A stretch of DNA of 64,000 nt from Actinocatenispora sera (lineage in GTDB: Bacteria > Actinomycetota > Actinomycetes > Mycobacteriales > Micromonosporaceae): NCBI RefSeq assembly GCF_018324685.1, contig NZ_AP023354.1, positions 62,001 through 126,000 of the forward strand. The letters run 5' to 3'. Shown in pieces: positions 1 to 35,731 of this stretch; positions within the stretch are counted from its first letter, which is position 1, and each line of letters starts with the position of its first letter. The notes below the pieces were generated by a model that was not told the origin of the DNA, searched no databases, and worked only from the letters and a program-made list of their open reading frames with translations. The translations under genes and the position numbers were made by a program.

Positions 1-1419
1 GCCGTTGTCCAGCACCACGAACAGCACGCCGATCCGCTGCTCGGCCAGTACCGCGAGGTCGGCGCCGAGCATTCCGAACGCGCCGTCGCCGACGAGTGCC
101 ACGACGGTACGGTCCGGCGCGGCGAGCTTGACCCCGCCGGCCGCGGCGGCGCCGAAGCCGAGGCTCGTCTGCTCCGACGGGACGATCGAGTTCGCCGGCC
201 CGGCGCAGCGCCAGAACGGGAAGAAGTAGGACCACATGTCCTGCAGCCCGTTCTCCTGCACCAGCACGTGCTCCGCCGGCAACCGCTCGGCCAACGAGGC
301 GAGCAGGGCGGCGATGCGCGGCGCGCTCGATGCCCGCGCCGCGGCCGTGTCCGCTTCGACCCGCTGCCGCGCCCGTACCGACACGGCACCCGCACGGTCG
401 ACCCAGACCGGGTCGGGCTCACGGCGGCCGACGGCGAGCCGGGCACACCAGTCCTCGACCACGCGCCCGGCGTCCGCGACCACCGACGGCCCGGCGAACT
501 CGGTACTCAGTTCGGTCGCGTCGATGTTGACCTGCACCACCGGTACGCCGGCCGGTGCGAAGCCGGTGCCGAACGTCGCGGTCTCCTCCAGCCGGCTGCC
601 CAGCGTGATCACCAGGTCGGTGTCGCGCCACAGCTCGACCGCCTCGGTCGGCGAGTACAGGCCGCAGACTCCGCAGCACAGCTCGTGCGCCTCGTCCACG
701 GCACCCCGGCCGGACGCGGTACTGAACACCGCCGCGCCGAGACCGGTCGCCAGCTGCTCCACCACGGCGGAACCGTTGCGGTGCCGCATCCCACCGCCGA
801 CCACCAGGATCGGGCGCCGGCTCGCCCACACCGCCGACCACGCGGTCGCCGCGGCGGCCGCGTCCGGCCCCGGGTACTGCGGGGCGACGTCCCGCCACGG
901 CCGCGTCCGGGGTACGACGGCATCGGACAGGTCGTCGGCGATCTCCAGGTACACCGGCCCAGGCGCGCCGGCCGCCGCCGTCGTGAACGCCCGTTCCAGC
1001 GCCGGGACGAGCCGGTCCGGATGGTCGACCCGGTACGCCCACTTGGTCAGCGGCCGCAGCAGCGCCACCTGGTCCAGCTCCTGGAAGGCCCGCGCACCGC
1101 GCCGGGCGACCGCGGTACCGGCGGCGAGCACCACCAGCGGCGCGGCCGACGCCGCGGCCTCCAGTACCCCGGTCAGCACGTTGGTGCTTGCCGGCCCCTT
1201 GCCGATCAGGCACACCGCCGGGTTGCCGCTCTGCAGCGCGTACCCGGTCGCCATGAAGCCGGCGTTGCGCTGGTCGCGGTTGAGCACGAACCGGATCTCG
1301 CCGTCCCGCAACGCATCCAGTACGGTCAGGTCGTCGGCCGGCAGGCCGAACACGGTGTCCACGCCGCGGGTGGTCAGGAAGTCGACCACCGCCTGCCACG
1401 CGCCGGGATACGAGGTCAT
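1..1419 (-). CDS. Thiamine-diphosphate-dependent decarboxylase/carboligase (partial)
   Basis: A ThDP enzyme of the acetolactate synthase/benzoylformate decarboxylase superfamily. It is cut by the window edge: 473 codons are present and the C-terminal residues lie outside. From the ATG at 1419, the N-terminal PYR domain shows the GLPADD turn and the GKGPAST loop (about residues 73-79). The C-terminal PP domain shows the ThDP/Mg motif GDGAFG from residue 444, followed by DNG. The position that is normally the catalytic Glu (HEQ in acetolactate synthase) reads NRDQ, giving Asp49. The start overlaps the stop of the upstream ligase-reductase gene in an ATGA, so the two are probably translationally coupled. 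Inferred role: it condenses or decarboxylates a 2-oxo acid with an aldehyde or acyl unit made by its neighbours. The substrate cannot be read from sequence. Confidence 0.88.
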   Translation of the reverse strand, partial: MTSYPGAWQAVVDFLTTRGVDTVFGLPADDLTVLDALRDGEIRFVLNRDQRNAGFMATGYALQSGNPAVCLIGKGPASTNVLTGVLEAAASAAPLVVLAAGTAVARRGARAFQELDQVALLRPLTKWAYRVDHPDRLVPALERAFTTAAAGAPGPVYLEIADDLSDAVVPRTRPWRDVAPQYPGPDAAAAATAWSAVWASRRPILVVGGGMRHRNGSAVVEQLATGLGAAVFSTASGRGAVDEAHELCCGVCGLYSPTEAVELWRDTDLVITLGSRLEETATFGTGFAPAGVPVVQVNIDATELSTEFAGPSVVADAGRVVEDWCARLAVGRREPDPVWVDRAGAVSVRARQRVEADTAAARASSAPRIAALLASLAERLPAEHVLVQENGLQDMWSYFFPFWRCAGPANSIVPSEQTSLGFGAAAAGGVKLAAPDRTVVALVGDGAFGMLGADLAVLAEQRIGVLFVVLDNG

Positions 1420-4118
1420 CCGCGTACCGGGCATTCGTCCGCCACCACCTTCGAGATCAGCAGCGGCTGGGCCCAGCGCCGCTTGCGATGACTGACGTAG
1501 TTGGCCATGATGCCGCGGCCGCCGAACGGGCGGTTCCCGTCGTCGACGTCCAGCAGGGTCCGGTCCACCGCCACCACGTGCCGCTTCCCCAGCTGCTCCA
1601 CCAGATCCGGCGCGTGCCCGTACACCATCGCGCCCATCGCCCGGTCCTGGAACGACGGCTCGGTCAGCCGGGTGCGCAGCTGTTCCCGGTCGGTGTAGCT
1701 GACGACGTTGAACACCGGGCAGAACAGTTCGGTCAGCGACATCGGCGCATCGAAGTCGCGCAGCAGGATCGTCGGATGCACCTGCCGGGTACGGAAGTCG
1801 ACCGCGCCGCCCTGCACGATGTAACCGGCGTTGCGCGGCAGGTACTCGGTCACCGCGGTCAACGCGCTGTCGTAGCAGATCGGTCCGTAGTCCGCGGCCG
1901 GGTCGGCGCAGTCGCCGAACGTCATGGCGGACAGTCGTTTCCCGATCCCCTCGACGAAACGGGCCGCGTCCTGCTCGGGGACGAAGAACACGTCCGGGCC
2001 GAAGCAGTCCTGGCCGGAGTTGAGCATCCGGATCCGTACCGCGTCGTCGATGGACAGGTCCAGGTCGGCGTCCGGCGCCACCACGAACGGGTTGGCACCC
2101 TGGCCGAACAGCATGAACAGCTGGTCGGTGCGCAGCTGGGCGCGCACCGCCTCGGCGTTGTGGTACGTGCCGGTGAACACCACGACGTCGGCGTCGGCGA
2201 CCGGTCCGCCGACGAACTTGCGCTGGCTCAGCGAGGCGAGTTCGATCGGAATCTGGTGTACCGGCGCCAGCAGCTCGTGCAGCTCCCGGGTGACCTCGGC
2301 GACCTGGCTGGACGGCCGGAACGCGATGTCCTCCACGAACAGCGCCGGCACCAGCAGGTACAGCACGTACGAGTAGAGCAGCACGTTGGACGGCATGAAC
2401 ACGGCCATCCGGCGTACCGCCTGCGGTCCGTTGCGCAGCACCTCGTCGACGGCGCCGGCCAGCGTGTGGATCGACCCGTCGATCTCCATGTCAACCGCGC
2501 GGTGCAGCGAGATCCGGGTCAGGATCCGGCGTACCTCCTCCGGCCGGTCCCGCAGCAGTTCCAGCACCGCCCGCAGCCCGGCCACCCGAGCCGGGAACGG
2601 CACGTCGCCCTCGCCGCCGGTCGTCGCCACGCCGGGCAGCAGCACCATCGCGTCGTCGCCGTTCGCGGCCGGCCGCCGGGCCGGCCCGACCAGTTCTTGC
2701 GCCATGTCGCGCAACCGGGCGAGATCCGGCTTTCCGTTGCGGTTGAGCGGGAACGACGGCAGGACCGCCACCTTGTTCGGACGCTCGTAGTCCGGCAGCA
2801 GGGCAGCGATCTCGCGCCGCAGCTCGGCGGCCGGCTGTCCGCTGCCGTCGGCCACGAAAAGCACCAGCTGGGTACCGCGCCCCTCGTCGGAGACCGCGAC
2901 GATCTTGACCGGCCGGCCGCACATCTCGGCCTTCCGCTCGATCGCCTCCGGGTAGAGCGTGTGCCCGAGCCGGTGCACCGCGTACTTGCGGCCGAGCACG
3001 ACGATGTTCCCGTCCGCGTCGGCGTAGCCGAGGTCGTTGGTCCGGTACGGCCCGTCACCGCGCGGCTCGATCGACCCGTCACCGCTCAGGTAGCCCTGCA
3101 TCAGGCTCGGGGACTGCACCCAGATCTCGCCGCTCTCCCCGGCCTGCACCGGATGCCCGTCACCGTCCACGATGGTGACCTCGACCCCGGGCAGCGGGCG
3201 CCCGCAGCCGACCGCGTTGCCGGGAGCTGCCAGCGCGACGTTGCCGGCCTCGTTGCTGCCGTACCCGTCGAGCAGCGGCAGCCCGAGCCGCTCCTGGAAC
3301 CGGTCGGCGAGCGACCGGGGCATCGGGGAACCGCCGACGCAGAACATCCGTACCGAGGCGAGGTCACGGGCGATCTCCGGCCGGCGGTCCATCAGCTTGA
3401 GCAGGCTGTGGTAGGTCGACGGCGCGGCGTCCAGCACCGTCGCGCCGCTGTCCGCGGCCAGCTTGACCGCCTGGTCGAGCCGGCCGAGCGGCGCGATCGC
3501 GAGCGAGCAGCCGAGCGTCCACGACATGACCAGCAGCGTCAGCCCGTAGAAGTGGGAGAACGGCACCAGCGGCAGCAGCACGTCGGTGTTGCGGTACGCC
3601 ATGCGTTCCCGGGTGCGCTCCAGGTCGTGCAGGAACCCGCGGCCGGAGCGCACGATGCCCTTCGGGATGCCGGTGGACCCGGACGACCAGGTGATGAGCG
3701 CGTCGGTGCGCCGGTTCCAGGCCGCGAACGACAGCACGTCGACGTCGGAGGTCGCGTCCGCCTCCTCCTTGACCAGGCTCGCCAGCGACACCACGTCGGC
3801 CCCGCCGGTGCTTTCGTCGAGGTCGCCCCGGACCACCCAGCGGGCCCGGGCCCGGCGGGCCATCCGCACCCGCTCCGCCTCGGTCTCCCGGTCGTCGGCC
3901 AGCACGATCGACACGTCCAGATGCATCAGGGCGAGCAGCGCCACGACGTAGTCGGCCGAGTTGCTGGCCGCCAGCATGACCCGGTCGCCCGCACACACGC
4001 CCCGGCCGCCGAGCACCGCAGCCATCCGCAGCGCGCGTTCCTCGATGTCGACCGACGTGTTCACGGCCTGGCAGGTGAAGATCCTGCCCGTCAACCATTC
4101 CACAGTGAGTCCATTCAT
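1416..4118 (-). CDS. Fusion of ANL acyl-activating enzyme and aldehyde-dehydrogenase-fold reductase
   Basis: A 900-residue two-part enzyme. Residues 1 to about 475 are a complete ANL adenylating domain: P-loop SSGSTGIPKG near 145, YGSNEAG, TNDLGY, the hinge region GRKYAVHRLG, and the catalytic-Lys motif NRNGKPDL near 460. Residues from about 515 to the end have the aldehyde dehydrogenase fold, with catalytic Cys705 in NSGQDCFGPD and LTELFCPVFN matching the EEIFGPV region. The ELGGK segment reads LFGQGANP, so the usual general-base Glu is missing, as in CoA-acylating family members. That favours reduction of an activated acyl group to an aldehyde. No carrier domain is visible between the halves. 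It lies 68 bp below the PKS gene and overlaps the ThDP gene. The activity is inferred from the domains. Confidence 0.85.
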   Translation of the reverse strand: MNGLTVEWLTGRIFTCQAVNTSVDIEERALRMAAVLGGRGVCAGDRVMLAASNSADYVVALLALMHLDVSIVLADDRETEAERVRMARRARARWVVRGDLDESTGGADVVSLASLVKEEADATSDVDVLSFAAWNRRTDALITWSSGSTGIPKGIVRSGRGFLHDLERTRERMAYRNTDVLLPLVPFSHFYGLTLLVMSWTLGCSLAIAPLGRLDQAVKLAADSGATVLDAAPSTYHSLLKLMDRRPEIARDLASVRMFCVGGSPMPRSLADRFQERLGLPLLDGYGSNEAGNVALAAPGNAVGCGRPLPGVEVTIVDGDGHPVQAGESGEIWVQSPSLMQGYLSGDGSIEPRGDGPYRTNDLGYADADGNIVVLGRKYAVHRLGHTLYPEAIERKAEMCGRPVKIVAVSDEGRGTQLVLFVADGSGQPAAELRREIAALLPDYERPNKVAVLPSFPLNRNGKPDLARLRDMAQELVGPARRPAANGDDAMVLLPGVATTGGEGDVPFPARVAGLRAVLELLRDRPEEVRRILTRISLHRAVDMEIDGSIHTLAGAVDEVLRNGPQAVRRMAVFMPSNVLLYSYVLYLLVPALFVEDIAFRPSSQVAEVTRELHELLAPVHQIPIELASLSQRKFVGGPVADADVVVFTGTYHNAEAVRAQLRTDQLFMLFGQGANPFVVAPDADLDLSIDDAVRIRMLNSGQDCFGPDVFFVPEQDAARFVEGIGKRLSAMTFGDCADPAADYGPICYDSALTAVTEYLPRNAGYIVQGGAVDFRTRQVHPTILLRDFDAPMSLTELFCPVFNVVSYTDREQLRTRLTEPSFQDRAMGAMVYGHAPDLVEQLGKRHVVAVDRTLLDVDDGNRPFGGRGIMANYVSHRKRRWAQPLLISKVVADECPVRG

Positions 4119-4186
4119 CGCGTACGAAGGGGGATCGGGCCCGGGGATCGACGCGTCGGTCGGTCACCGGAGCCGTCGGGTGCGCC

Positions 4187-7100
4187 TCACGCGGGGGTGG
4201 GCGCCAGCGGTGTGCGAAGCCGGCCGAGTTCCTCGGCGACGACCTGCACGGTCCGTTCGAGCTGCTCGGTGGTGTGCTCGGAGGTGACGAAGAACCGCAG
4301 CCGGGCCAGTTCCTCGGGCACCCCCGGGTACATGATCGGGTTGACGCTGATGCCGCGATCGAAGAGCGCGTGGCACAGCGCGAGGGAGCGGGCCGAGTCG
4401 CCCACGATGCACGGCACCACCGGGGAGTCCCGGCTGGTGCCGGTGTCGATACCGGCCTTGCGGGCGAGATCCAGGAACAGCCGGGAGTTCGCGGTCAGCC
4501 GGGCCAGCCGGGCCGGCTCGGCGCGCATGGCGCGCAGCGCACCGAGCGCCGCCGCCGTGTTCGCCGGCGTCATCCCGACGCTGTAGACGAACCCGGGCAC
4601 CGTGTACCGCAGGTACTCGATCAGCGTGCGGGCGCCGGCGACGTAGCCGCCGCAGGATGCGAGCGACTTCGACAGCGTGCCGGACCAGATGTCCACAGTG
4701 GACCGGTCGACGTCGAAGTGCTCGCCGATCCCGCCGCCGTGCGCGCCCACGGTACCGATGCTGTGCGCCTCGTCGACCATCAGCAGCGCACCGCGCCGCT
4801 GCTTCACCGCGATCAGCTCCGGCAGCTGCGCGATGTCGCCGTCCATGCTGTACACGCCCTCGACGACGACCAGGCAGCGGCGGTGCCGCGGCCGGTGCCG
4901 GCCGAGTACCGCGTCCAGTGCGGCCGGATCGTTGTGCGCGAACGGTCGGCGCGTCGCGCCCGACAGCGCGCAACCCTGCAGGATGCTGTCGTGCGCCAGC
5001 TCGTCGTGCACGATCAGGTCGCCGGGGCCGACGAGGTGGCCGATGACCGACACGTTCGTCGCGTGCCCGCTGACCATCGCCAGGCACGCCTCGGCGCCCA
5101 GCAGGGCGGCCAGTTCGACCTCCAGCTCGTCGTGCAGCGGCCGGTTCCCGGACAGGAAGCGGCTCGCCGACACCGAGGTGCCGTACCGCCGGACCGCCTC
5201 GAAGACCGCCTCGTTGACCTGCGGATGCCCGGACAGTCCGAGGTAGTTGTAGCTGGAGAAACTGACCAGCTCCTGCCCGTCGATCCGGGTCGTCTGCCGG
5301 GCGTTGCCCTCGTGCGTCAGGAAGTACGGGTTGCGCCCGAGCCGGGCCAGCTCCTCGTCGTGCCCGGCCAGTTCCGGCATGTCGGCGAGGCCGCGTTCGG
5401 GTGTCACCGCGCCCGGGCCGGGTTCGGTGGGCCGCGGCTCCGACACCGCAGGGGGAGTCGGGTCCGGTGTCGGAGCCGCGGGTGGGTGGCCGCCGAGGGC
5501 GGCGGCCGCTGCCGGCACGGTGTCGCCCGGACGCACGATCTCGGCGATGGCGTCGACCATCTCGCGCAGCGTCGGACGAGCCGGCAGGTCGGTACCGGCT
5601 CCGGCCAGTGCCGGCCAGACCCGGGTCAGCGCGGACAGCAGCTCGGTGACCATCAGCGAGTCGAACCCGAGCTCCTGCACGAGCAGTTCGGTACCGGTGA
5701 AGTGGTCGACCGGGAACGCGCTGATCCGGGCCACCTCGCGGTAGACGACGGTCGCGACCTCGTCACGCCCGGACATCACCGCCGAGCCCGGCGCCGGGGT
5801 CGCGACCGGCCGCGGGTCGGCCGCTGCGGCGACCAGCCGCGGGTCGGCGGCTCCGACCAGCCGCCGGTCGGCGGTTGCGGCGTCCGGCTGCGGCCGGTCC
5901 GGTTCCGCGGCGGCCCGCGAAGCGTTGGTGGCGCCCGGATCCAGCGACCGCAGCAGCGCGATCTGCTCCCGGAACAGGTTGACGAGTTCGCTCACCGGCT
6001 GGTCCTCCTGGCTCGCTGCAACGGGTACCTGGGTCGGCCGCGATCCGGCGCGCGCCGACGACGCGTCCGGTGGGCGCGAACCGGCGGGTGCCTGCGGTGG
6101 TTTCGGACGACCGGCCGCGTTCGGCGCACCGGCGGTCGCGTCCGCTGCCGGCGGACCGGGCCGTACCGGCACGGTCGCGCCGTTCGACCGGAAGCCGGCC
6201 GGGTCGCCGGCGCCGGTACGACCGGCGAGCTGCCCGGCCGGGTCGGTCTCGGGGTGCAGGAACGCGTCGACGTCCGGCCACGGCGGGGTCGGGTAGCTGC
6301 GGTTGGCCAGCGGCGTCACCGGCGGGCTGAGCAGCCGGCCCGGCGCGGCGGTGATGCCGGAGCCGTCCACGTCCACGCCGAGCGTGACGAGCTGGGCCAG
6401 CCCGGTGAGGAAGCTGCGGGCGTCGTCCGGCCCCTCGCCGGTCACCGACACGTAGTGGCAGTCGGTGCGGTCCCGCAGGTTCTGCCGCACCGTCCGCAGC
6501 AGCGCGGACCCGCCCAGCACCTGCACGAAGATCCGGGCACCCGCCTGGTACGCGGTGCGAGCGGCGTCGGCGAACCGTACCGGCGCACCCGCATGCCGGC
6601 GCCACAGCTCGGCCAGCTCGGCCGGTTGTGCACCACCGGTACCGGAGACCGAGGAGACGAACGTCCGGGTCGGCGGCAGGATCGCGGCGGCCGGCACCGC
6701 GGCCCGGATCTCGTCCCGGGCCGAGTCCAGCAGCGGGGTGTGGAACGCGTTGGAGACCGTCAGCGGCTGGCTGCCGATCCGTTCCGCGGCCAGCCGCTGC
6801 TCGAACTCCGCCAGCGCCGCGACGGTACCGGCCACCACGGTCTGCCGCGGATGGTTGTAGCAGGCCGGCCACAGCCCGGCGATGCCGTCGAGCAGCTCGG
6901 CGACCCGGTCCGGGCCGGCCTGGACGGCGAGCATGCCGCCCCGCTCGGTGGCCTCCGCCGCCCGCATCGCGGCGCCGCGGCGCGCCATCATCGTCACCGC
7001 GGCGTCGTCCGGCAGAGCGCCCGCCGCGACCGCCGCGGGGAACTCGCCGACGCTGTGCCCCAGCGCCACGTCCGGCGTCACACCGCAACGAGCGAGCAGC

Positions 7101-8962
7101 CGGGTCGCCGCCACCCCGAGAATGCCCAGGGCCGGCTGGCACACGTCGGTACCGGTCAGCCGGTGCCGGCCCGCCTCGGTGTCGGCGTCCGCGCCGTACA
7201 CGGCGTCCAGCGCCGAGAAGCCGGAGCCGGTGCGGACCCGGTCGTCCAGCCGGTTCGCCGCGGCGGCGAACACCGGGAACCGGTCGTACAGGTCGCGCAG
7301 CATGTCCGGCCGTTGACTGCCCTGCCCCGGGTAGACGAACGCGACGACCCGGGCCGCGTCCCGCACGGTGCTGCGCGCCAGGTACACGCCGTCGTCGAGC
7401 CGCCCCGTGTCGGTACCGGCAAGCCGCGGCAGCGCCGCCTCGATCCTGGCCCGCAGCTCGGCCCAGGACGCCGCGACGATGGCGAGCCGGGCGCGCAGCG
7501 GGCGCCGGGTGCCGAGCGTCGCGGCGAGCCGGGTGAGGTCGTCGGCGGTACCGAGGCCCTCCCGGTCGGCCCAGTCGAGGAACCGGCGCAGGTAGCCGTC
7601 CAGCCGCTCGATCGTGCCGGCGGTGAAGACGAACAGTTCGGGTCGCGGTTCGGCCGGTTCCGGGGCCGGCGGCTCGGGCGCCTCCTCCAGGACGACGTGC
7701 ACGTTGGTCCCGCCGAAGCCGAACGAGTTGATCCCGGCCCGGCGCGGCGTCGCCGGATCGGCCGGCCACGGTACCGCCGTCGCCGGCAGCCGCAGTCCGG
7801 CCCGCTCGAGCCGGGCCGCGTCCTCCACGTCGGTCGCCGGCTGCGGCGGGATCGTGCCGTGGTGCAGGGCGAGTGTCGTCTTGATCAGGCTGGCCAGCCC
7901 GGAGGCGGTCAGCGCGTGGCCGACGAGCGCCTTGATCGAGGTCAGGTACGCCGGCGGGACCGGGCGGGCGGCATCGTCCCCGGCCCGTACCCGGGTCAGC
8001 GACGACAGCTCGACCCGGTCGCCGACCACCGTCGCCGTACCGTGCGCCTCGATCAGCCCGACCGACCCCGGTGCCACCCCGGCGTCGGAGTACGCCCGGG
8101 TCATCGCCCGGACCTGCCCGTCCTCGCGCGGCGTCATCGGCCCGTCCGCGGTGCCGTCGTTGGAGCAGCCGATGCCGCGAATCACCGCGTACACCCGGTC
8201 GCCGGCGGCGAGCGCCGCGGCGAGCGGCCGCAGTACCACGACGCCGACGCCCTCGCCGAGCACGAACCCGTCCGCGCGCCGGTCGAACGGCCGGCACACA
8301 CCGGCCGTCGACAGCGCGCCGACCCGGGAGAAGCCGACCAGCCCGACCGGTGCGAGGCTCAGGTAGGCCCCGCCGACGAGCGCCTCGGTGCACACCTCGG
8401 CTCGCAGCGCGGTGACCGCTTCGTGCAGCGCGGTCAGTCCGGACGAGCAGGCGGAGTCGACGGTGAAGCTCGGCCCGCCGAGATCGAAGTGCTGGCTGAC
8501 CGTCGCCGCGGCCATGTTCAGCAGCGAGCCGGGCACGGCGTACGGGTCGATGCCGGCCGCGCCGGGCGTCAGCTGGTTGAACTCGGCCGAGCTGAGGGCG
8601 AAGTACACGCCGGTGTTGACCGCGTCGTACGGGCGGCGTTCCCATCCGGCGTCCTGCACCGCCTCGCGCGCCACGTCGAGCAGCAGCCGGTGCTGCGGGT
8701 CGGTGTTGCGGACCCGCCGGGGCGACATCCGGTAGTGCACCGCGTCGAACTCGTCGACCCGGTCGAGGTAGGCGACCCGGTCGGTGTAGCTCTTGCTGTC
8801 CGACCGCCGGTCGTCCGGGTCGAAATAGCGCGAGTGGTCCCAGCGCGCTGCCGGGACCGGGCGAAACTGCCGTTCGGTCGAACTGGCCAGCCGCCAGAAG
8901 TCGGTCAGATCCCGTGCACCCGGGAACCGGCAACTCATGCCGATTATCGCGATGTCCCGCAT
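4187..8962 (-). CDS. Polyketide synthase KS-AT-ACP with C-terminal alpha-oxoamine synthase
   Basis: A 1591-residue multidomain enzyme. The KS (about 3-430) has Cys172 in DSACSSGL, the His motif EAHGTA and the second His in SIKALVGHA. The AT (about 555-850) has Ser637 in GHSVGEF and NAFHTPLL at the extender-specificity site, close to the HAFH malonyl type. After a Pro/Ala-rich linker comes an ACP with pantetheine Ser1102 in LGFDSLMV. A class II PLP-dependent alpha-oxoamine synthase (about 1190-1585) follows, with VDEAHS and the PLP Lys1432 in SGTLSKSLAS. No KR, DH, ER or thioesterase is present. By family knowledge the last domain releases an acyl-ACP by decarboxylative condensation with an amino acid, giving an amino ketone. 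The ATG at 8962 is chosen for its GGGAG Shine-Dalgarno. The frame stays open to 9154, but that stretch looks non-coding. Confidence 0.92.
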   Translation of the reverse strand: MRDIAIIGMSCRFPGARDLTDFWRLASSTERQFRPVPAARWDHSRYFDPDDRRSDSKSYTDRVAYLDRVDEFDAVHYRMSPRRVRNTDPQHRLLLDVAREAVQDAGWERRPYDAVNTGVYFALSSAEFNQLTPGAAGIDPYAVPGSLLNMAAATVSQHFDLGGPSFTVDSACSSGLTALHEAVTALRAEVCTEALVGGAYLSLAPVGLVGFSRVGALSTAGVCRPFDRRADGFVLGEGVGVVVLRPLAAALAAGDRVYAVIRGIGCSNDGTADGPMTPREDGQVRAMTRAYSDAGVAPGSVGLIEAHGTATVVGDRVELSSLTRVRAGDDAARPVPPAYLTSIKALVGHALTASGLASLIKTTLALHHGTIPPQPATDVEDAARLERAGLRLPATAVPWPADPATPRRAGINSFGFGGTNVHVVLEEAPEPPAPEPAEPRPELFVFTAGTIERLDGYLRRFLDWADREGLGTADDLTRLAATLGTRRPLRARLAIVAASWAELRARIEAALPRLAGTDTGRLDDGVYLARSTVRDAARVVAFVYPGQGSQRPDMLRDLYDRFPVFAAAANRLDDRVRTGSGFSALDAVYGADADTEAGRHRLTGTDVCQPALGILGVAATRLLARCGVTPDVALGHSVGEFPAAVAAGALPDDAAVTMMARRGAAMRAAEATERGGMLAVQAGPDRVAELLDGIAGLWPACYNHPRQTVVAGTVAALAEFEQRLAAERIGSQPLTVSNAFHTPLLDSARDEIRAAVPAAAILPPTRTFVSSVSGTGGAQPAELAELWRRHAGAPVRFADAARTAYQAGARIFVQVLGGSALLRTVRQNLRDRTDCHYVSVTGEGPDDARSFLTGLAQLVTLGVDVDGSGITAAPGRLLSPPVTPLANRSYPTPPWPDVDAFLHPETDPAGQLAGRTGAGDPAGFRSNGATVPVRPGPPAADATAGAPNAAGRPKPPQAPAGSRPPDASSARAGSRPTQVPVAASQEDQPVSELVNLFREQIALLRSLDPGATNASRAAAEPDRPQPDAATADRRLVGAADPRLVAAAADPRPVATPAPGSAVMSGRDEVATVVYREVARISAFPVDHFTGTELLVQELGFDSLMVTELLSALTRVWPALAGAGTDLPARPTLREMVDAIAEIVRPGDTVPAAAAALGGHPPAAPTPDPTPPAVSEPRPTEPGPGAVTPERGLADMPELAGHDEELARLGRNPYFLTHEGNARQTTRIDGQELVSFSSYNYLGLSGHPQVNEAVFEAVRRYGTSVSASRFLSGNRPLHDELEVELAALLGAEACLAMVSGHATNVSVIGHLVGPGDLIVHDELAHDSILQGCALSGATRRPFAHNDPAALDAVLGRHRPRHRRCLVVVEGVYSMDGDIAQLPELIAVKQRRGALLMVDEAHSIGTVGAHGGGIGEHFDVDRSTVDIWSGTLSKSLASCGGYVAGARTLIEYLRYTVPGFVYSVGMTPANTAAALGALRAMRAEPARLARLTANSRLFLDLARKAGIDTGTSRDSPVVPCIVGDSARSLALCHALFDRGISVNPIMYPGVPEELARLRFFVTSEHTTEQLERTVQVVAEELGRLRTPLAPTPA

Positions 8963-11877: not shown

Positions 11878-13107
11878 TCAACGCGGCGCGGCGGCCTCCG
11901 GTACCGGCTCGGCGGTGACGGCCGGGACCTCGGTGTGCGGGCGGGCCAGTCTCAGCAGCGGGCCGGTCATCACCGTGGTCAGCAACGCCATGACCACCAT
12001 CAGCGAGTAGAGGGCGCCGTCCAGTACCCGAAGCTGCAGCCCCACGGTCAGGATCACCAGCTCGGTCAGGCCACGGGAGTTCATCAACGCGGCGAGCGCG
12101 CTCGCCTCCCGGCGCTCGGCACCGGCGGCGACCGCGCCGACCCAGGTACCGAGGAACTTGCCGCCGATGGCCACCGCGAGGACCAGGGCGAGCTCCAGCA
12201 GCCCGCCGGCACCCAGGCCGGTGAGGTCGACGGTCCGGCCGGCCAGCACGAAGTAGACCGGCAGCAGCAGCACGCTGACCGGCTGCAGGTAGCGCACCAG
12301 GTCGGCGGCCAGGTCGCCGCCGCGCGGCAGGGCGACGCCGAACGCGAACGCGCCGAAGATCAGGTGCATGCCCAGCCACTCGGTGGCGAGCGAGGACAGC
12401 ACGAGCCCGACCACGATCACGACGAGGCGGGTGGGCCCCGACTTGCGCACCACCAGCCGCAGCAGCGGCCGCAGCACGAACACGAGGACCGCCACGTACC
12501 CGGGTGCGAAGATCAGCCGGCCGCCGGTGCCGGCGGCCGCACCCGCCATCGCCACCACCGCGGCCAGCAGGCCCCAGGCGACCACGTCGTCCAGCGCCGC
12601 GCTCGCCAGTGCAAGACCGCCCAGCCGGGTGCGCTCCAGGCCGCTGTCGGTCAGGATCCGGGCGAGTACCGGGAAAGCGGTCACCGCCATCGCCGCACCG
12701 ACGAACAGCGCGAGGACGACCGGCTGCGTGCTGTGGTGCCGGTGCGCCAGCCAGCAGCCGAGCGCCACCCCGAGCACCGCCGGCAGCACGATCGACCCGA
12801 TCGACACGGACACCGCGACGCGCTCGCGGCCGCGGATCAGCTGACGGTCCAGCTCGTAGCCGAGCAGGAACATGAACGGAATCAGGCCCAGGTCGGCGAG
12901 CGAGACCAGCGCACCGTCGACCGAGGCGGGAAAGAGCCGCGTGTCCAGGGTGTGGCCGAGCAGCGTCGGGCCGAGGGCCACGCCGGCGACGATCTCGCCG
13001 ACCACCGCCGGCTGCCGCAGCGCGCGTGCCACCGCACCGAACAGCCGAGCAACGGCCAGGATGATCGCCAGATCCAGCAACAGGGCCTGAACGTCGTGGC
13101 TGCTCAC
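11878..13107 (-). CDS. Cation/H+ antiporter (CPA2, Kef-type membrane domain)
   Basis: A 409-residue integral membrane protein with about 12 hydrophobic segments. It has the paired-Asp signature SAALDDVVAW and the family motif NSRGLTEL. It corresponds to the membrane part of Kef/CPA2 exchangers, without an RCK/TrkA-N nucleotide-binding domain. The GTG at 13107 is chosen because GGAGGA lies just upstream; the frame continues further, but with composition unlike a membrane protein. It starts 17 bp after the sulfotransferase stop and ends the halogenase-led operon. Related antiporters occur in actinomycete biosynthetic clusters, where export or pH-homeostasis roles have been proposed. The role here is unknown. 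Confidence 0.88.
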   Translation of the reverse strand: MSSHDVQALLLDLAIILAVARLFGAVARALRQPAVVGEIVAGVALGPTLLGHTLDTRLFPASVDGALVSLADLGLIPFMFLLGYELDRQLIRGRERVAVSVSIGSIVLPAVLGVALGCWLAHRHHSTQPVVLALFVGAAMAVTAFPVLARILTDSGLERTRLGGLALASAALDDVVAWGLLAAVVAMAGAAAGTGGRLIFAPGYVAVLVFVLRPLLRLVVRKSGPTRLVVIVVGLVLSSLATEWLGMHLIFGAFAFGVALPRGGDLAADLVRYLQPVSVLLLPVYFVLAGRTVDLTGLGAGGLLELALVLAVAIGGKFLGTWVGAVAAGAERREASALAALMNSRGLTELVILTVGLQLRVLDGALYSLMVVMALLTTVMTGPLLRLARPHTEVPAVTAEPVPEAAAPR

Positions 13108-13124
13108 CGTGCTCCTCCGGCTCT

Positions 13125-14186
13125 CTAGGACGAGCCGGACGGAGTGCGGGCCAGCCGCTCGCGCAGCGCCCGCACCGCCCGGGTGCCGGGCTCGCAGGCC
13201 TCCCGCAGGGCCCGGCGCTGCGCCTCCGGCGGCTCCGACGACCGACCGGTACCCGAACCCGGTCGGACCAGGGTCACCGCCTCGGCCAACCATCCGTCCG
13301 GCGCGTCGACGCCGAGCATCGCGGCCAGCTCGCGGAAGCGGTGCACCGGATCGGCCAGCACGTCCTCGTAGCGCAGGTACCGGATCCGGTCGGTCGGTAC
13401 CGCGTCCAGCTCGCGGACGCCGTCGGCGACCAGGTGCGACCAGATCATCCCGAACACCGGCAGCGGGATCGGCTGCGACATCAGCGCCGTGCCGTCGAAG
13501 CGGTCCGGCAGCAGGCAGCGCAGCTCCGGCGGCAACCGGTCGGCGTGGCCGGCGGACGGCGACAGGTACGGATCGACGCCGAGCAGGTCCATCATCTCCA
13601 ACACCCGTACCTCCAGCCGGAACGACGGGTGCCGGCTCATCGACGCCGAGGCGGCCGAGCCGTCCCGGTCCAGGTACAGGTAGCGGGCGTCCGGGAAGCA
13701 GGCACGCAGCCCCGGGACGAACCGCAACGACGCCCCGGAACGCTCCACGACCACGTCCCGGTCAAACCGGTCGCACAGCCAGTCGAACAACCGCGCGTAC
13801 TGGACCGCCACGCTCGCGCGCTCCCAGCCGGTCACCGCCGCCTCGATCTCGTCCAGTACCTCGTCCGGCCGGTCGGACAGGTGCGGCAGCGTCACCAGGC
13901 TGACCGGTGGAACCCCGGTCTCCGCGGTGAACCGGCCGGAACCGAACGGGTACAGGTACTCGGCCGGCGCCACGCCGTGCCGCAGCTGGGTCATCGCCTT
14001 CGACCGCGGGGTGCTCAGGATCGCCCAGAAGCGTCCGCCGTCGATCTCCTCGACCGGGAACGCGTCCGGGTCCAGCGAGGTGAAGAACTCGCTGAGGCTG
14101 AGCACCCGCGGGTGCCGGTTCAGCACCGTCGACAGCAGGGTCGAACCGCATCGACCGGTGCCGAGGACGACCGTCAACTGGCGCAT
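13125..14186 (-). CDS. PAPS-dependent sulfotransferase family protein
   Basis: A 353-residue cytosolic sulfotransferase-fold protein. The N-terminal motif GTGRCGSTLL (about residues 7-16) matches the 5'-phosphosulfate-binding loop. YLYLDRDGSAASASMSRHP corresponds to the 3'-phosphate-binding Arg/Ser region, and RYEDVLADP is a typical C-terminal family segment. It should transfer sulfate from PAPS to a hydroxyl or amine. The frame is open to 14582, but the ATG at 14186 has a GAGAGGGAG Shine-Dalgarno and starts directly at the P-loop strand. It lies 26 bp after the membrane-protein gene in the halogenase operon, so it is probably a tailoring enzyme. The acceptor is unknown. Confidence 0.85.
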   Translation of the reverse strand: MRQLTVVLGTGRCGSTLLSTVLNRHPRVLSLSEFFTSLDPDAFPVEEIDGGRFWAILSTPRSKAMTQLRHGVAPAEYLYPFGSGRFTAETGVPPVSLVTLPHLSDRPDEVLDEIEAAVTGWERASVAVQYARLFDWLCDRFDRDVVVERSGASLRFVPGLRACFPDARYLYLDRDGSAASASMSRHPSFRLEVRVLEMMDLLGVDPYLSPSAGHADRLPPELRCLLPDRFDGTALMSQPIPLPVFGMIWSHLVADGVRELDAVPTDRIRYLRYEDVLADPVHRFRELAAMLGVDAPDGWLAEAVTLVRPGSGTGRSSEPPEAQRRALREACEPGTRAVRALRERLARTPSGSS

Positions 14187-14212
14187 CGGGTACCGCTCCC
14201 TCTCGACGGTGG

Positions 14213-15028
14213 TCAGTAGCCGGCCCGGCCGGCGGCCGGCGCGTGTCTCGGCGGGTTCACCGGCGAGGCGCCGGCCGCACCGCCGCGCCGCCACAACAGC
14301 ACGGCGATCGCCACGTACCAGATCAGCGGGAGCAGGGTGGCGAACACCGGATACAGCACGGCGTAGCCGAGGTCGGTGTTGCCGGTCATCCACAAGTACC
14401 CGGTGGTGAACACGGCACCGATGCCGCCGACGACGCCGAGCCAGCCGACCCATCGCGGCAGCCGCGACCCGAGCAGGATCGCCAGGCCGTACCCGATCGG
14501 GGCGAGGCCGGTCATCGCGGCCAGCGAACCGAGCTCGGTACCCAGCGTGTCCCGCACGCCTTCGGCGAAGATCGGCACCCACTCCGGCCGGGTCGCGGCG
14601 TTCGCCTGCTCCCAGCTGGTCGCCAGGTACTCGTGCAGGTAGCCGTCGTGCACCATGGTGATCAGGAACATCGCGGCGCCACAGATGGCGAGCCCGCCGG
14701 CCGCCCGGGCCAGGGGCCGGGCCGGCCCCTGCTCCAGGATGTCGCCGAGGCTCAGCAGGCCCACCAGCTTCAGCAGCACCACGAACGCGAACACCAGGTG
14801 CACCACGAGCCAGACGTTGCGGGCGGCGAGGATCCCCTTCAGGTACGTCAGCGTCGGCACGTCGCCGAACGGGTCCTGTACGCCGAGCTCCAGCACGACC
14901 GTCACCACCAGGCCGGCGACGACACCGAGCAGCGTCGCCGCCGCGCCCAGCCGGTACACCGAGCGGCGTACCGGCTCGGCCTGGCGGCCGGTCGCGGGCA
15001 CGTTCTCCAGCACGGTCATCTCAGTCAC
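14213..15028 (-). CDS. Six-helix membrane protein, DUF4386-like
   Basis: A 271-residue protein with about six predicted membrane helices: AAATLLGVVAGLVVTVVLE, VWLVVHLVFAFVVLLKLVG, GLAICGAAMFLI, APIGYGLAILLG, VVGGIGAVFTTGYLW and LPLIWYVAIAVLLW. I do not recognise a function. The pattern resembles the DUF4386 group of actinobacterial membrane proteins. The GTG at 15028 overlaps the fabI-like stop by 8 bp; an ATG at 15019, one base after that stop, is equally possible. Its place inside the operon suggests a cluster role such as transport or immunity, without direct evidence. Confidence 0.75.
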   Translation of the reverse strand: MTEMTVLENVPATGRQAEPVRRSVYRLGAAATLLGVVAGLVVTVVLELGVQDPFGDVPTLTYLKGILAARNVWLVVHLVFAFVVLLKLVGLLSLGDILEQGPARPLARAAGGLAICGAAMFLITMVHDGYLHEYLATSWEQANAATRPEWVPIFAEGVRDTLGTELGSLAAMTGLAPIGYGLAILLGSRLPRWVGWLGVVGGIGAVFTTGYLWMTGNTDLGYAVLYPVFATLLPLIWYVAIAVLLWRRGGAAGASPVNPPRHAPAAGRAGY

Positions 15029-15785
15029 CCACCGCGTGGTAGCCGCCGTCGGCGTGCACGATCTCGCCGTTGGTCACCGGCATCCAGTCGGACAGCAGCG
15101 CGATGCAGGTCCGCGCCACCGGTTCGATCGCGTCGGACTTCCAGCCCATCGGCGCCCGCGCCGCCCAGGCACCCTCGAACTCGCCGAAGCCGGGGACGTT
15201 CGACGCCGCCATGGTGCGCAGCGGCCCGGCGGCGACCAGGTTGCACCGCACGCCCTTCGGCCCCAGATACCGGGCGAGATAGCGGTTGCAGGACTCCAGG
15301 CCCGCCTTCGCCACACCCATCCAGTCGTACGACGACCAGGCGAACCGCGCGTCGAAGTCCATGCCGACCAGCGATCCACCGGTACGCATCAGCGGCGCGG
15401 TCGCCATCGCCAACGCCTTCAACGAGTAGGCGGACACGTGCATCGCGGTCGCCACGTCGCTCCACCGGGTCTGCAGGAACTCGCCGCCCAGCGCCGTCTC
15501 CGGCGCGAACGCGATCGAGTGCAGTACCCCGTCGAGCTCGTCCACGTGCTCGCGCACCCGGTCCGCCAGGCTGTCGAGGTGCTCCTCGTCGGTCACGTCG
15601 AGCTCGATCACCGGTGCGGGTTCCGGCAGCCGCGTCGCGATCCGTTTCACCAGGCTCAGCCGCCCGTACCCGGTCAGTACCACCGTCGCGCCCTGCTGCT
15701 GCGCGAGCCGAGCCACCTCGAACGCGATCGACGCCGTCGTCAGTACCCCGGTGACCAGGATCTTCTTCCCATCCAGGATGCCCAT
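15021..15785 (-). CDS. fabI: Enoyl-[acyl-carrier-protein] reductase (NADH), FabI/InhA type
   Basis: A 254-residue short-chain dehydrogenase of the FabI/InhA class. The N-terminus GKKILVTGVLTTASIAF is the typical atypical-Rossmann nucleotide site. HSIAFAPETALGG matches the InhA HSIGFMP region, and the catalytic Tyr and Lys lie in YDWMGVAKAG (Tyr-x6-Lys). It reduces the enoyl-ACP double bond in fatty acid synthesis, but here it sits in a biosynthetic operon 25 bp below a halogenase gene. It could supply a reduction that the PKS lacks, make the starter acyl chain, or be a duplicated target giving self-resistance. The sequence does not separate these. Confidence 0.9.
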   Translation of the reverse strand: MGILDGKKILVTGVLTTASIAFEVARLAQQQGATVVLTGYGRLSLVKRIATRLPEPAPVIELDVTDEEHLDSLADRVREHVDELDGVLHSIAFAPETALGGEFLQTRWSDVATAMHVSAYSLKALAMATAPLMRTGGSLVGMDFDARFAWSSYDWMGVAKAGLESCNRYLARYLGPKGVRCNLVAAGPLRTMAASNVPGFGEFEGAWAARAPMGWKSDAIEPVARTCIALLSDWMPVTNGEIVHADGGYHAVGD

Positions 15786-15810
15786 CGCTGTCCCTCCTCC
15801 CGTTCGTCGC

Positions 15811-17622
15811 TCAGTCGGCGCTCGGCACCGGTACCGGCCCGGCCGGCGCGGTCCCGGCCGTCGCCACCTCGACGACCCCGGCGCGCATCAGCAGCTTGAT
15901 GAAGTTGAGCTGGATCTCGTTGAGCTCGCCGCGCAGCTCGCGGTAGGTACGCGGGCCGGACGAGAGCGCCTTCCACACCACGACACCGCCGTCCTGGTCC
16001 GGGAAGCTGCGCACCTCGCGGTCCGCCCCGGGTACCGAGAAGCGGTGGCACACCTCGGGACTGGCCATCGGCGACGGCAGCGCGTCGCCGTGCGCGATCG
16101 GGTCGCTCCAGTACCGCGCGACCGCGTCCCGGTACTCCGCCGGTACGCCGAACGACACCGGCGGCAGGTTTCCCTTGAAGCCGGGCAGGTCCAGCCCCAG
16201 ACTCTCCCGCATCGTCGCGCCCTCGGCGATCCGTACCACGTCGTCGTCGCCCGGCTCCCCCGGGTCGGCCAGGCCGAGCGCCCGCACGTACGGGCCGTCC
16301 GGGTCGAGGTCCTCGGCCGCGTAGCTGTGCTTGGTCATGGTGCGCAACAGTTCCGCGTCCATCGCGGTGCTCAGCAGGATCTCGAACGTCTCCTCGCGCA
16401 CGCCGAGATCGACGGTGTTGCCGCGGGACTTCCAGTACACGCTCTGCGGGTGGTTCTCGCCGATCGCGTGGTACCACTGGTCGATCGACAGCGAGTACGT
16501 CTCGGCGATGGCGTGCCACTCGCGGTCGTAGTCGGTCCACACGTCCCGCTTGTACTGCTCCGGGATGTTCGGGTCGACCGCGGTGCGGATCAGGGTGGCG
16601 GCGGACAGCGCGTGGTGCATCGCGAACGCGACACCGGAGGAGAACAGCGGGTCGACGAAGTACGCGGCGTCGCCGACCAGCAGCCACTTGTCGTCGAAGT
16701 TGACGAACTCGTCGTTGATCATCGAGTAGTTCGTCGCGGTGCTCATCTTCCGCCGGATCGGCGTACCGTCGGTCGCGAGGTCGCGGATCAGCGGGATCCG
16801 GTCGATCGTCTTGCGGAACACGTCCGGATCGGTGAAGTCCTTCCCGTCCTCGCGCAGCACCTCGGGCACCGTCACGATGCCGATCGAGTGCGTCACCACC
16901 CAGCGGCCGTCGATCTTCTTCGGTACCGGGATGAACCAGCCCCAGCCGTCCTCGAACGCCGAGCACACGATCGGCGACTTGGACCCGTCGTGGAAGATGT
17001 TCCAGTCGCGGTCGATCGAGTAACCGTGCCGGCAGCCCGTGTAGTGCTGCCACACCGCGATGTTGCGGTACGCCGACAGGTGCTGGCGCCGCTGCGGCGA
17101 GGTGATGCTGTTGCGGCGGCCGGACGCGTCGACGAAGAACGTGCCGTGCACGGTGCGTCCGCCGGCGAGCCGCACCTCGCACCCGCCGGGCAGCCGCGTG
17201 TAGCCCTGCACCGAGGTCTCCTCGAAGACGTGCACGCCCTGCTCCTCGGCGTGCCGCAGGAGCAGGTTGTCGAGGTCCTCCCGGTTGACATGGAAGGCGA
17301 AGCGGGACTGCCCGTCCTCGGCCCAGTGCGCGTGGTCGAAGAACCCGGCCGTCGGCTCGGTGCCGTCCCAGTAGAAGATGCCGCCGTACTTCTTGACGGT
17401 GAAGTCGGCGTTCATCACCTTGTCCAGCACGCCGATCTGCTGCATCGCCGAGGTCGACGGGTGCGCGAGCGACTCGCCGATGTGCTCCCGCGGGAACTTG
17501 ACCTTGTCGAAGATCGCGACGCTCAGGTCCGTCGTCCTGGCCAGCTGCGTGGCCAGGGTGGATCCGCCCGGCCCGCCACCCATGATGACGACGTCGTAGT
17601 GGGTACCGATCTCACGGCTCAT
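15811..17622 (-). CDS. Flavin-dependent halogenase (tryptophan-halogenase superfamily)
   Basis: A 603-residue FADH2-dependent halogenase. The N-terminal dinucleotide motif is GGGPGGS, followed by KFPREHIGES, typical of pyrrole/phenol and carrier-tethered-substrate halogenases. The WxWxIP signature appears as GWGWFIPV near residue 228, and VGDAAYFVDPLFSSG is the second FAD-binding region. After the catalytic core there is an extra segment of roughly 90 residues ending in a winged-helix-like stretch (VWKALSSGPRTYRELRGELN onward), making it longer than free-tryptophan halogenases. It should chlorinate or brominate an aromatic, pyrrole or carrier-bound intermediate and needs a flavin reductase, which is not in view. 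It heads the operon with fabI, the membrane protein, the sulfotransferase and the antiporter. Confidence 0.92.
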   Translation of the reverse strand: MSREIGTHYDVVIMGGGPGGSTLATQLARTTDLSVAIFDKVKFPREHIGESLAHPSTSAMQQIGVLDKVMNADFTVKKYGGIFYWDGTEPTAGFFDHAHWAEDGQSRFAFHVNREDLDNLLLRHAEEQGVHVFEETSVQGYTRLPGGCEVRLAGGRTVHGTFFVDASGRRNSITSPQRRQHLSAYRNIAVWQHYTGCRHGYSIDRDWNIFHDGSKSPIVCSAFEDGWGWFIPVPKKIDGRWVVTHSIGIVTVPEVLREDGKDFTDPDVFRKTIDRIPLIRDLATDGTPIRRKMSTATNYSMINDEFVNFDDKWLLVGDAAYFVDPLFSSGVAFAMHHALSAATLIRTAVDPNIPEQYKRDVWTDYDREWHAIAETYSLSIDQWYHAIGENHPQSVYWKSRGNTVDLGVREETFEILLSTAMDAELLRTMTKHSYAAEDLDPDGPYVRALGLADPGEPGDDDVVRIAEGATMRESLGLDLPGFKGNLPPVSFGVPAEYRDAVARYWSDPIAHGDALPSPMASPEVCHRFSVPGADREVRSFPDQDGGVVVWKALSSGPRTYRELRGELNEIQLNFIKLLMRAGVVEVATAGTAPAGPVPVPSAD

Positions 17623-18024
17623 TCGTGGCCCCGATTCATGTCTCGCCCACCTCGTGGCGGGGAACGGCCCGCCGGATGTGCCGTACTCGGACGTCGGCTG
17701 TCAGCGAGCGGATGTCGGCCGGACACCGCCGTCGCATCGTGTCCGGCGGCGTCCGCGTGCCCACAGCGTGCCAGCAATCCCGCAACCGCCGACCGAGAAC
17801 ATCACCGAAGTGTTTGTCCGCAATCGATCTCGGTACGGAAATCGGCAGTAGGGTCCGCATCGGAGGCGACGCACCCGTTCGTACCCACCGCATCGCCGCA
17901 TCGCGCTCACCACAGGCGAACCTCCACCCGCAGGCCATCACCCGGCCGGGCAGCACCGGCCGCGGGCGACGTTCGGAACCGGTACGGCACACCGCGATCG
18001 GCGGGCGACGGTCGGGAGAACGCG
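17623..18024. other. Divergent promoter region between halogenase and MFS genes
   Basis: 402 bp separating the minus-strand tailoring operon from the plus-strand exporter, with a lower-GC patch near 17800-17860. It should contain both promoters. No clear inverted-repeat operator was seen. An open frame on the minus strand here has no recognisable protein features. Confidence 0.5.
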
Positions 18025-19302
18025 TTGAGCAACGACTACGGCAAGCTGCTGTCGATCCCGTACACCAAGGGGTTCGTTGTCACCGGCCTCGTCGGCCGGC
18101 TGCCGATGTCGATGCTGGGCATCAGCGGCATCCTGCTCGTCACCTCGACCGTCGGCTCGTACACCCTGGCCGGCATGCTCAGCGGTTCGCTGCTGCTCGC
18201 GCAGTCGCTGACCGCGGCGCAGCGCGGTCGGCTGGTCGACCGGTGGGGGCAGCGGCGGGTACTGCTGCCGATCGTGCTCGCGCACACTGGTGCGCTGACC
18301 GCCATCCTGCTGTGCTGCCTGTTGCACGGGCCCGAGCTGTTGCTGCTGGCTTTCGGGTTCGTTGCCGGCACCACCTTCCCGTCGATCGGCGCGCTGGTGC
18401 GGTCGCGCTGGACCGACATCCTCAGCGGCCCGCAGGCGCCGCCCGGCGCACCCGCGCTGAGCGTGGCGCTGTCGCTGGAGTCCGCGATCGACGAGCTCGT
18501 CTACATCCTCGGCCCGCTGCTCGCCACGCTGCTGGCCACCTCGATCACCGGCGCCGCCGGCTTCGTCGGGGCGATGGCCTGCACGCTGGTCGGCGGCGTC
18601 CTGTTCGCCACCCGCAAGGGTGGCGGCGATCCGCACCCGCGGCCGGCGGCCGACTCCGGTTCGGTCCTGCGCATCGGCGGCATCCGGGTCGTCGCCGCGG
18701 TGTGCGTGGCGCTCGGCACCATCCTCGGTGCGGTCGAGGCCACGATCGTCGCCTACACCAAGGAACACGGCCACACCGGCCTGTCCGGACCGATCGTCGC
18801 CGCGTTCTCGGTCGGCAGCCTGATCGCCGGCCTGGGGTACGGCTCGCGTACCTGGCGGGGCAACGCGGCGAACCGCTTCGTGCTGGCGATCGCCTGCGTG
18901 CTGGTCGGCATGGTCCCGGTGATGCTCGCACCGAACATGGGCCTGCTGACCGCGGGCGTCGTCGTGGCCGGCATCGCGTTGGCGCCGGCGCTGATCGGCG
19001 CGCACGAGCTGATCCAGGAACTGGTACCGGCGGAGAAGATCACCGAGGGGTACTCCTGGGTGCAGACCACCGTCGGCCTCGGCCTCGGCATCGGCGTCAG
19101 CGCCGCCGGTACGGTCACCGACCGGTACGGCGCCCACACCTCGTTCCTGATCGCGGGCGCCGCCGCCGTGCTGGCCGTACTGATGTCGCTACCGTTTCGC
19201 CGGGTGCTGGCCCGCGCCGCGACGCCCGTGCAGTACCGGGGAACGCACCGGCGGGCCGCCTGGGTGCCGCGGCACGCGATCCGCGGCGGTCAGGTGAGGT
19301 AG
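18025..19302 (+). CDS. MFS transporter, probable product exporter
   Basis: A 425-residue major facilitator with about 12 hydrophobic segments. The cytoplasmic loop GRLVDRWGQRR between helices 2 and 3 is the MFS family motif. The start is taken as the TTG at 18025 with GGGAG six bases upstream, because the first in-frame ATG (MSMLGISG) would remove part of helix 1. It is transcribed divergently from the halogenase operon, which fits an efflux or self-protection role for the cluster product. Its stop overlaps the convergent multicopper oxidase gene by 13 bp. Confidence 0.85.
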   Translation: MSNDYGKLLSIPYTKGFVVTGLVGRLPMSMLGISGILLVTSTVGSYTLAGMLSGSLLLAQSLTAAQRGRLVDRWGQRRVLLPIVLAHTGALTAILLCCLLHGPELLLLAFGFVAGTTFPSIGALVRSRWTDILSGPQAPPGAPALSVALSLESAIDELVYILGPLLATLLATSITGAAGFVGAMACTLVGGVLFATRKGGGDPHPRPAADSGSVLRIGGIRVVAAVCVALGTILGAVEATIVAYTKEHGHTGLSGPIVAAFSVGSLIAGLGYGSRTWRGNAANRFVLAIACVLVGMVPVMLAPNMGLLTAGVVVAGIALAPALIGAHELIQELVPAEKITEGYSWVQTTVGLGLGIGVSAAGTVTDRYGAHTSFLIAGAAAVLAVLMSLPFRRVLARAATPVQYRGTHRRAAWVPRHAIRGGQVR

Positions 19303-33714: not shown

Positions 33715-33730
33715 CGGGAGACGGGTACGG

Positions 33731-35728: not shown

Positions 35729-35731
35729 ACG

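Follow-up and report, generated by a model that had tools for sequence, protein, structure and literature searches.

What does a gene cluster make when its central enzyme joins one polyketide synthase (PKS) module to an alpha-oxoamine synthase (AOS) dependent on pyridoxal phosphate (PLP), and is this enzyme what sets the cluster apart? The question is raised by a 64,000-nt stretch of Actinocatenispora sera (hereafter the window), which spans bases 62001-126000 of a genome contained in one 7.04 Mb contig. The sequence suggests a biosynthetic cluster for a lipid-type secondary metabolite, ~26-29 kb long and lying at 52-81 kb of the genome. On balance, the predicted pathway probably leads to a RedL-type amino-ketone or 3-pyrrolinone lipid that is N-oxygenated on a guanidine and perhaps halogenated. 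The direct support consists of the gene content, the catalytic residues and a gene set common to two genera.

This gene set is shared with Actinocatenispora comari and Planobispora takensis. PKS-AOS, a fused AMP-dependent ligase and aldehyde dehydrogenase-family protein (ligase-ALDH), an enzyme dependent on thiamine diphosphate (ThDP), FabF, an acyl carrier protein (ACP), an acyl-ACP desaturase, FabI, a halogenase-like enzyme and a YqcI/YcgG protein are common to both, and the full set beside PKS-AOS was seen in these two genomes and in A. sera. Since the set is kept in Planobispora, the halogenase-like protein, FabI and YqcI/YcgG belong to the cluster. The ligase-ALDH protein is 98% identical to that of A. 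comari and 61% to that of Planobispora. Other identities with Planobispora are 75% for AOS, 58% for the ketosynthase (KS) and acyltransferase (AT) part, 55% for ThDP, 66% for FabF, 43% for ACP, 67% for the desaturase, 39% for DUF4386, 69% for FabI, 60% for the halogenase-like enzyme, 43% for the major facilitator superfamily (MFS) protein, 40% for LuxR and 36% for the Na/H antiporter. A 40-kb region surrounding the Planobispora cluster yielded no match to FabG, MMPL or the sulfotransferase (sulfotransferase: tblastn, E<=1e-8). The sulfotransferase, syntenic in A. comari, was for this reason rejected as a core gene and is probably accessory; the sulfated product suggested in an initial annotation of the window is weakened by the same result.

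No published cluster with this gene set was recognised in the literature covered, which concerned PKS plus AOS, RedL, lipolanthine-type clusters and Actinocatenispora and had subscription journals mostly outside it. The view that the combination is not a described cluster therefore stands for that literature, but the megaenzyme itself is of a known kind. Judged by sequence, the combined gene set looks new, with unusual conserved partners, and the megaenzyme is not the surprising part.

The megaenzyme and its relatives

The PKS-AOS frame ends at window position 4187 on the minus strand; the Met at 8962 gives 1591 aa, and a GTG at 9154 opens the frame. Pfam detects KS, AT and Aminotran_1_2 domains. 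Because Pfam detects no ACP at E<=1e-3, the ACP assignment is based on an LGFDSL motif, and with it the proposed order KS-AT-ACP-AOS in one polypeptide holds. The catalytic residues Cys172, Ser637, Ser1102 and Lys1432, numbered from the Met at 8962, are all exactly where the initial annotation had placed them, and their loss, which it had named as grounds for rejection, was not seen. It had also described the protein as free of reductive domains and thioesterase; in agreement, the Pfam scan reported no ketoreductase, dehydratase, enoylreductase or thioesterase domain. No thioesterase or PKS-type reductive domain was reported among the scanned cluster proteins either, the FabG-like and FabI-like enzymes being separate proteins. 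The AT carries the motif NAFH, which we take to be malonyl-type. The domains thus remain consistent with a single malonyl-type extension step and subsequent release by the PLP-dependent AOS, which would give an amino-ketone or pyrrole-type product as first proposed. Among solved structures the AOS domain matches serine palmitoyltransferases best, and next an AOS of the BioF/KBL kind.

PigJ (KS) and PigH (ACP-AOS), with which the initial annotation compared the protein, are separate proteins in prodigiosin synthesis. The logic of KS plus ACP-AOS is the same, but here it is fused, and against the PigJ NCBIfam model our protein scores 141.2 bits (cut-off 900). The fused RedL (A-ACP-KS-AT-ACP-AOS-epimerase) is closer and, as the nearest precedent, makes the megaenzyme one of a known kind. 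RedL converts dodecanoic acid to 4-keto-2-undecylpyrroline, which is reduced by RedK (PMC12654105), and an A-CP-KS-AT-PLP protein of Streptomyces griseoviridis is already listed in Table 2 of an older survey (PMC3870968). The RedL pathway (RedP/Q/R/J/L/K) and the A. sera cluster share KS-AT-ACP-AOS in one polypeptide, a dedicated FabF-like KS and ACP for acyl chain supply, and an expected single malonyl extension with PLP-dependent release. They differ in that the A. sera protein lacks the N-terminal AMP-binding and carrier loading part (A-ACP) and that its cluster adds ligase-ALDH, the ThDP enzyme, YqcI/YcgG, the desaturase and the halogenase-like protein.

Two RedL-type proteins were found among the genomes compared. 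The first, in G581, lies near a 938-aa protein that scores above the RedH cut-off (1667 versus 1350 bits). It has 2663 aa, with AMP-binding, ACP, KS, AT, ACP, Aminotran_1_2 and Epimerase domains (two PP-binding stretches), and from these domains we read it as the RedL, carrying a RedK-like domain, of an undecylprodiginine cluster that includes RedH. G027 resembles G581, but its RedL-type protein has no Epimerase domain and its RedH match, 982 bits, is below the cut-off. In the A. sera genome no RedH exceeds the cut-off, although weaker matches exist, and a prodiginine cluster was ruled out. The A. sera AOS is 50-51% identical to the two RedL-type proteins and 56-75% identical to other fused proteins outside the genus. 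In an AOS tree it groups with that of Planobispora (99/99), outside the two RedL-type domains, which form a separate pair (100/99); deeper forks lack resolution.

AOS matches at E<=1e-85 occur in at least 19 of 394 genomes of the class (at least 21 rows, own included), with at least 14 rows in frames of >=1000 aa; the genome counts are lower bounds, few first-look candidates having been scored per genome. These matches rule out a megaenzyme unique to A. sera. Among the 13 long-frame rows besides our own, 10 show KS and AT matches upstream of AOS inside a single called gene; G670 shows both matches in an interrupted reading frame, while G698 and G531b match in the KS part alone. Pfam scans of five of the fused relatives agreed, the gene call in G187 starting inside KS. 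As far as such matches go, the KS-AT-ACP-AOS fusion is not new and occurs in several actinomycetes. At one of these loci (L096:7797-15530, in G531), genes for an MMPL exporter, a KS-AT-AOS protein and a phosphopantetheinyl transferase stand side by side, perhaps the simplest place for learning the product of a PKS-AOS of this family.

A shared cassette and its thiamine enzyme

The distribution of ligase-ALDH was determined by searching the order and the class. In the order, 24 of 397 genomes (own included) have matches at E<=1e-40: eight others are near full-length, G083 carries ligase and ALDH as separate genes, and the remaining 14 have only the ligase half (13 genomes) or only the ALDH half (G286). 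In the class, four of 394 genomes, own included, match at E<=1e-150. Together with A. comari and Planobispora, the latter also found in the class search, both halves are present in 14 distinct genomes, A. sera among them. A relative of the ThDP enzyme was found in the examined regions of all 13 others, and none in three ligase-only regions (G111, G306, G369). FabF accompanies the pair at >=54% identity in 12 of the 13 and at 28% in G239.

The surroundings of this cassette vary. By blastp, a class III lanthipeptide-type synthetase and a GNAT protein lie nearby in 7 of the 13 other genomes, and Pfam RamC_N is present in all three such loci scanned (G302, G512, G620). The G290 region holds a nonribosomal peptide synthetase (NRPS) with four condensation stretches; in G168 (L041:6104-8455) the neighbours are a FemAB-like acyltransferase and an AOS-like PLP enzyme that stands alone and has diverged widely (29% identity). 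The cassette is thus paired with different release systems, and it most likely supplies an acyl chain. Seven loci thus have the make-up of lipolanthine-type clusters, namely a class III lanthipeptide synthetase, a GNAT acyltransferase and fatty-acid genes; in contrast, neither a lanthipeptide synthetase nor a GNAT protein was recognised among 19 proteins in or beside the A. sera cluster. FabI is found in 7 of 12 cassette genomes outside the genus (Planobispora, G046, G243, G302, G354, G073, G620). With another FabI over the cut-off at genome position 4334733, the cluster FabI is an extra copy, but its recurrence with the cassette makes a role as a self-resistance copy less likely.

Within the ALDH domain, all 14 of the 14 sequences aligned, two of them (L037 and L032) not fused, retain the Cys and an FTG motif. 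The general-base Glu of ALDHs is linked to acid formation, and its loss fits thioester reduction. In an alignment to the best solved ALDH no Glu matches this residue, and we therefore read the domain as one for thioester or adenylate reduction, or for CoA-acylation, rather than acid formation.

In the ThDP enzyme the catalytic Glu is replaced. A HMMER alignment to 6lpi places R-D-Q (RDQR) where acetohydroxyacid synthase (AHAS) has R-H-E, and D-Q-R occupies the catalytic Glu site in all 16 aligned rows from 14 of 14 genomes. The cofactor motif GDG...N is present in the A. sera enzyme, with GDG in 15 of 16 rows (GDS in G083), and Glu is kept in all five other ThDP-type matches of the same genome at E<=1e-10. 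In a survey of the superfamily, standard position 51 is Glu in 94% and Val in 3% of members, Val being typical of glyoxylate carboligase (PMC3534367), so that a clade with conserved Gln is unusual. Glyoxylate carboligase likewise lacks the catalytic Glu, but has Val instead of Gln; the enzyme studied here is otherwise AHAS-like and sits in a biosynthetic cassette. Its PDB matches are AHAS (179 bits), BbmA, a solved ThDP enzyme (176 bits), and 2-hydroxyacyl-CoA lyase (HACL) or oxalyl-CoA decarboxylase (~112-129 bits). Alpha-oxidation by an HACL-like enzyme was considered as a possible role; the lower HACL-type scores as compared with AHAS and the absence of an aligned general base in the ALDH domain bear on it. 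The initial annotation was right to place a ThDP enzyme in the cluster, but the protein is acetolactate-synthase-like, with Gln in place of the catalytic Glu, and an analogy to PigD was not supported.

In its furthest form, the proposal would be that the cassette is an undescribed mobile acyl-chain device with new, Glu-less thiamine chemistry, plugged into lanthipeptide, NRPS and RedL-type PKS-AOS systems and here leading to an alkyl-pyrrolinone that carries an N-hydroxylated guanidine and possibly a halogen and represents a new structural class. We regard this as rather improbable.

Predicted pathway and competing explanations

In the pathway that we favour, the dedicated FabF, ACP, FabG, FabI and acyl-ACP desaturase would produce an unusual acyl chain whose starter is supplied or modified by ligase-ALDH and the ThDP enzyme. 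As its domains suggest, KS-AT-ACP would take this chain and add one malonyl unit without reduction, and AOS would catalyse decarboxylative condensation with an amino acid to an alpha-amino ketone bearing a second ketone. Closure by the amine would give a 4-keto-2-alkyl-pyrroline, by analogy with RedL. YqcI/YcgG may then N-hydroxylate a guanidine brought by the acyl chain or by arginine as the AOS amino acid, the halogenase-like enzyme may introduce a halogen, and export would be by the MMPL and MFS proteins.

The expectation of a guanidine in the product comes chiefly from the YqcI/YcgG protein. It scores 173 bits against the Pfam profile (cut-off 27) and 247.5 bits against NF041366, the GntA model (cut-off 145). 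PF08892 is present as a single copy in the genome, within the cluster, and in 2 of 14 control genomes; the protein gave no PDB matches. In an alignment limited to two proteins, Cys64, a candidate axial heme ligand by its position, pairs with a Cys of the Planobispora counterpart. The profile score places the protein in the family of the guanidine N-hydroxylases GntA, AglA, ChmN and DcsA. Arginine as the AOS amino acid has a precedent in saxitoxin synthesis, where an AOS uses it, and we know of no described YqcI/YcgG member that is the partner of a PKS-AOS. Described members are heme-thiolate guanidine N-H hydroxylases (PMC12866846, PMC10849742), although the activity of DcsA had lacked in vitro confirmation (PMC10849742).

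The best PDB matches of the halogenase-like enzyme are 3e1t (a named halogenase), 5buk, CmlS and PltA. It carries a flavin adenine dinucleotide (FAD) motif, a WxWxIP motif (GWGWFIP) and, in alignments to 3e1t and 5buk, a Lys pair at the expected place; we take the WxWxIP motif and the Lys position to be marks of flavin-dependent halogenases.

Several observations count against this pathway. The AOS active-site motif is SASR, compared with SATP or AATP in the two RedL-type proteins, which leaves room for another amino acid and another mode of cyclisation; as a sequence signature, moreover, the motif is not diagnostic of the amino acid used. No RedK-type epimerase, fused or adjacent, was recognised by Pfam among the cluster genes, whose only SDR-type (short-chain dehydrogenase/reductase) proteins are FabG-like and FabI-like. 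YqcI/YcgG is just 36-38% identical between the A. sera and Planobispora clusters, the other cassette and PKS-AOS loci examined yielded no copy of it, and no arginine-processing enzyme was recognised in the cluster. The halogenase-like protein scores nearly as well with the profile of the monooxygenase QhpG (139 bits) as with CmlS (147 bits), both far below cut-off, and this leaves halogenation likely but not secure.

The AOS could instead join serine to an acyl chain, giving an open-chain sphinganine-like or keto-sphingoid lipid exported by MMPL rather than a pyrrolinone. SgaAB in Pseudomonas makes sphinganines from a PKS and an AOS with serine (PMC12134224), again releasing the PKS product as an amino-ketone lipid; serine palmitoyltransferases are the best PDB matches of our AOS, the FabG-like SDR could reduce the ketone, and the gene order in G531 would suit such a route. 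However, the AOS is a separate protein in SgaA/SgaB, with a reduced sphinganine as product, and is fused to KS-AT-ACP here. The second ketone left by the non-reducing module favours ring closure, and YqcI/YcgG and halogenase-like enzymes are ill-suited to a plain sphingoid base. We consider this route unlikely.

Another possibility, though a somewhat improbable one, is that ligase-ALDH and the ThDP enzyme act after chain assembly, converting a fatty acid to an aldehyde to which a two-carbon unit is added (acyloin or PigD-like), with the resulting second building block later joined to the amino ketone. A ligase and an ALDH in one chain fit acid-to-aldehyde reduction, as does the unmatched general-base Glu, which is expected of thioester reduction rather than acid formation, and the ThDP enzyme is carboligase-like. 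Ordinary carboligation is nevertheless uncertain for an enzyme without the catalytic Glu, and the company of FabF, often FabI, and GNAT acyltransferases in lanthipeptide-type loci points to acyl-chain supply. It is very improbable that the region holds two adjacent clusters, one with PKS-AOS and the genes to its left, the other with the halogenase-like, FabI, DUF4386 and sulfotransferase genes. Between these blocks in the window lie genes for a LuxR regulator and an antiporter, but in Planobispora, where the halogenase-FabI-DUF4386 block is inverted, the MFS gene alone separates it from PKS-AOS. In both clusters the MFS gene adjoins the halogenase-like gene divergently.

Extent of the locus and significance

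The ThDP enzyme, ligase-ALDH fusion, halogenase-like protein, sulfotransferase, FabI-type reductase and MFS exporter of the initial annotation are all present, but the span it gave is incomplete. The same-strand run extends left of window position 1 as far as genome position 55236, and seven co-directional genes, the ThDP gene first and the MMPL exporter last, cross position 1 or lie beyond it on the left. This left half, with its dedicated FabF/ACP/FabG, desaturase, YqcI/YcgG N-oxygenase and MMPL, alters the picture of the cluster. Genes were called by a codon-position composition script, and their starts are therefore approximate.

Table 1. Genes of the A. sera cluster and its borders
Feature	Position	Strand	Evidence
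ThDP-dependent enzyme, 563 aa, AHAS-like	window 1..1419 (5' part); full gene genome 61728-63419	-	Pfam TPP_enzyme_N/M/C, alignment, PDB AHAS 179 bits
AMP-dependent ligase fused to ALDH-family reductase-like domain, 900 aa	window 1416..4118	-	Pfam
KS-AT-ACP-AOS polypeptide, 1591 aa	window 4187..8962	-	Pfam, catalytic residues, PDB matches
LuxR-family regulator with ATPase domain	window 9350..11578	-	Pfam GerE; AAA_16 slightly under cut-off
Na+/H+ exchanger family transporter	window 11878..13107	-	Pfam
Sulfotransfer_3 protein	window 13125..14186	-	Pfam
DUF4386-like protein	window 14213..15019	-	Pfam, under curated cut-off
FabI/InhA-type enoyl-ACP reductase	window 15021..15785	-	NCBIfam NF005908, 422.9 bits (cut-off 299)
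FAD-dependent halogenase-like enzyme	window 15811..17622	-	Pfam, PDB matches
MFS transporter	window 18025..19302	+	Pfam
FabF	genome 60421-61647	-	over NCBIfam curated cut-off TIGR03150
ACP	genome 60095-60349	-	over NCBIfam curated cut-off NF002147
YqcI/YcgG heme N-oxygenase-like protein	genome 59185-60018	-	Pfam; over NCBIfam curated cut-off NF041366
Acyl-ACP desaturase family protein	genome 58244-59188	-	Pfam
FabG-like SDR	genome 57543-58247	-	Pfam
MMPL exporter	genome 55236-57419	-	Pfam
LuxR regulator, beyond MMPL gene	genome 52356-55148	opposite to run	Pfam

Directly past the MFS gene lies a multicopper oxidase gene (window 19290-20828), syntenic in A. comari. G+C is 0.66-0.68 at window 32001-44000 and 0.68 at 16001-18000, against mostly 0.71-0.77 elsewhere. 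The Planobispora cluster (G730) has a second, stand-alone AMP ligase (L066:15426-16844) that shares 47-48% identity with the ligase part of ligase-ALDH, directly followed by genes for both cytochrome bd oxidase subunits (L066:16834-19120), possibly for self-protection.

What surprises at this locus is less the megaenzyme than the shared cassette and its thiamine enzyme with Gln at the catalytic site. A small, concrete cluster common to two genera combines RedL-type release with a guanidine N-hydroxylase family, and the shared cassette offers a handle on the acyl chemistry of several lanthipeptide-type loci. The comparison also brings to light a conserved group of thiamine enzymes that lack the catalytic Glu kept by nearly all others, a finding that would bear on how thiamine diphosphate is activated; one purified protein suffices as a test.

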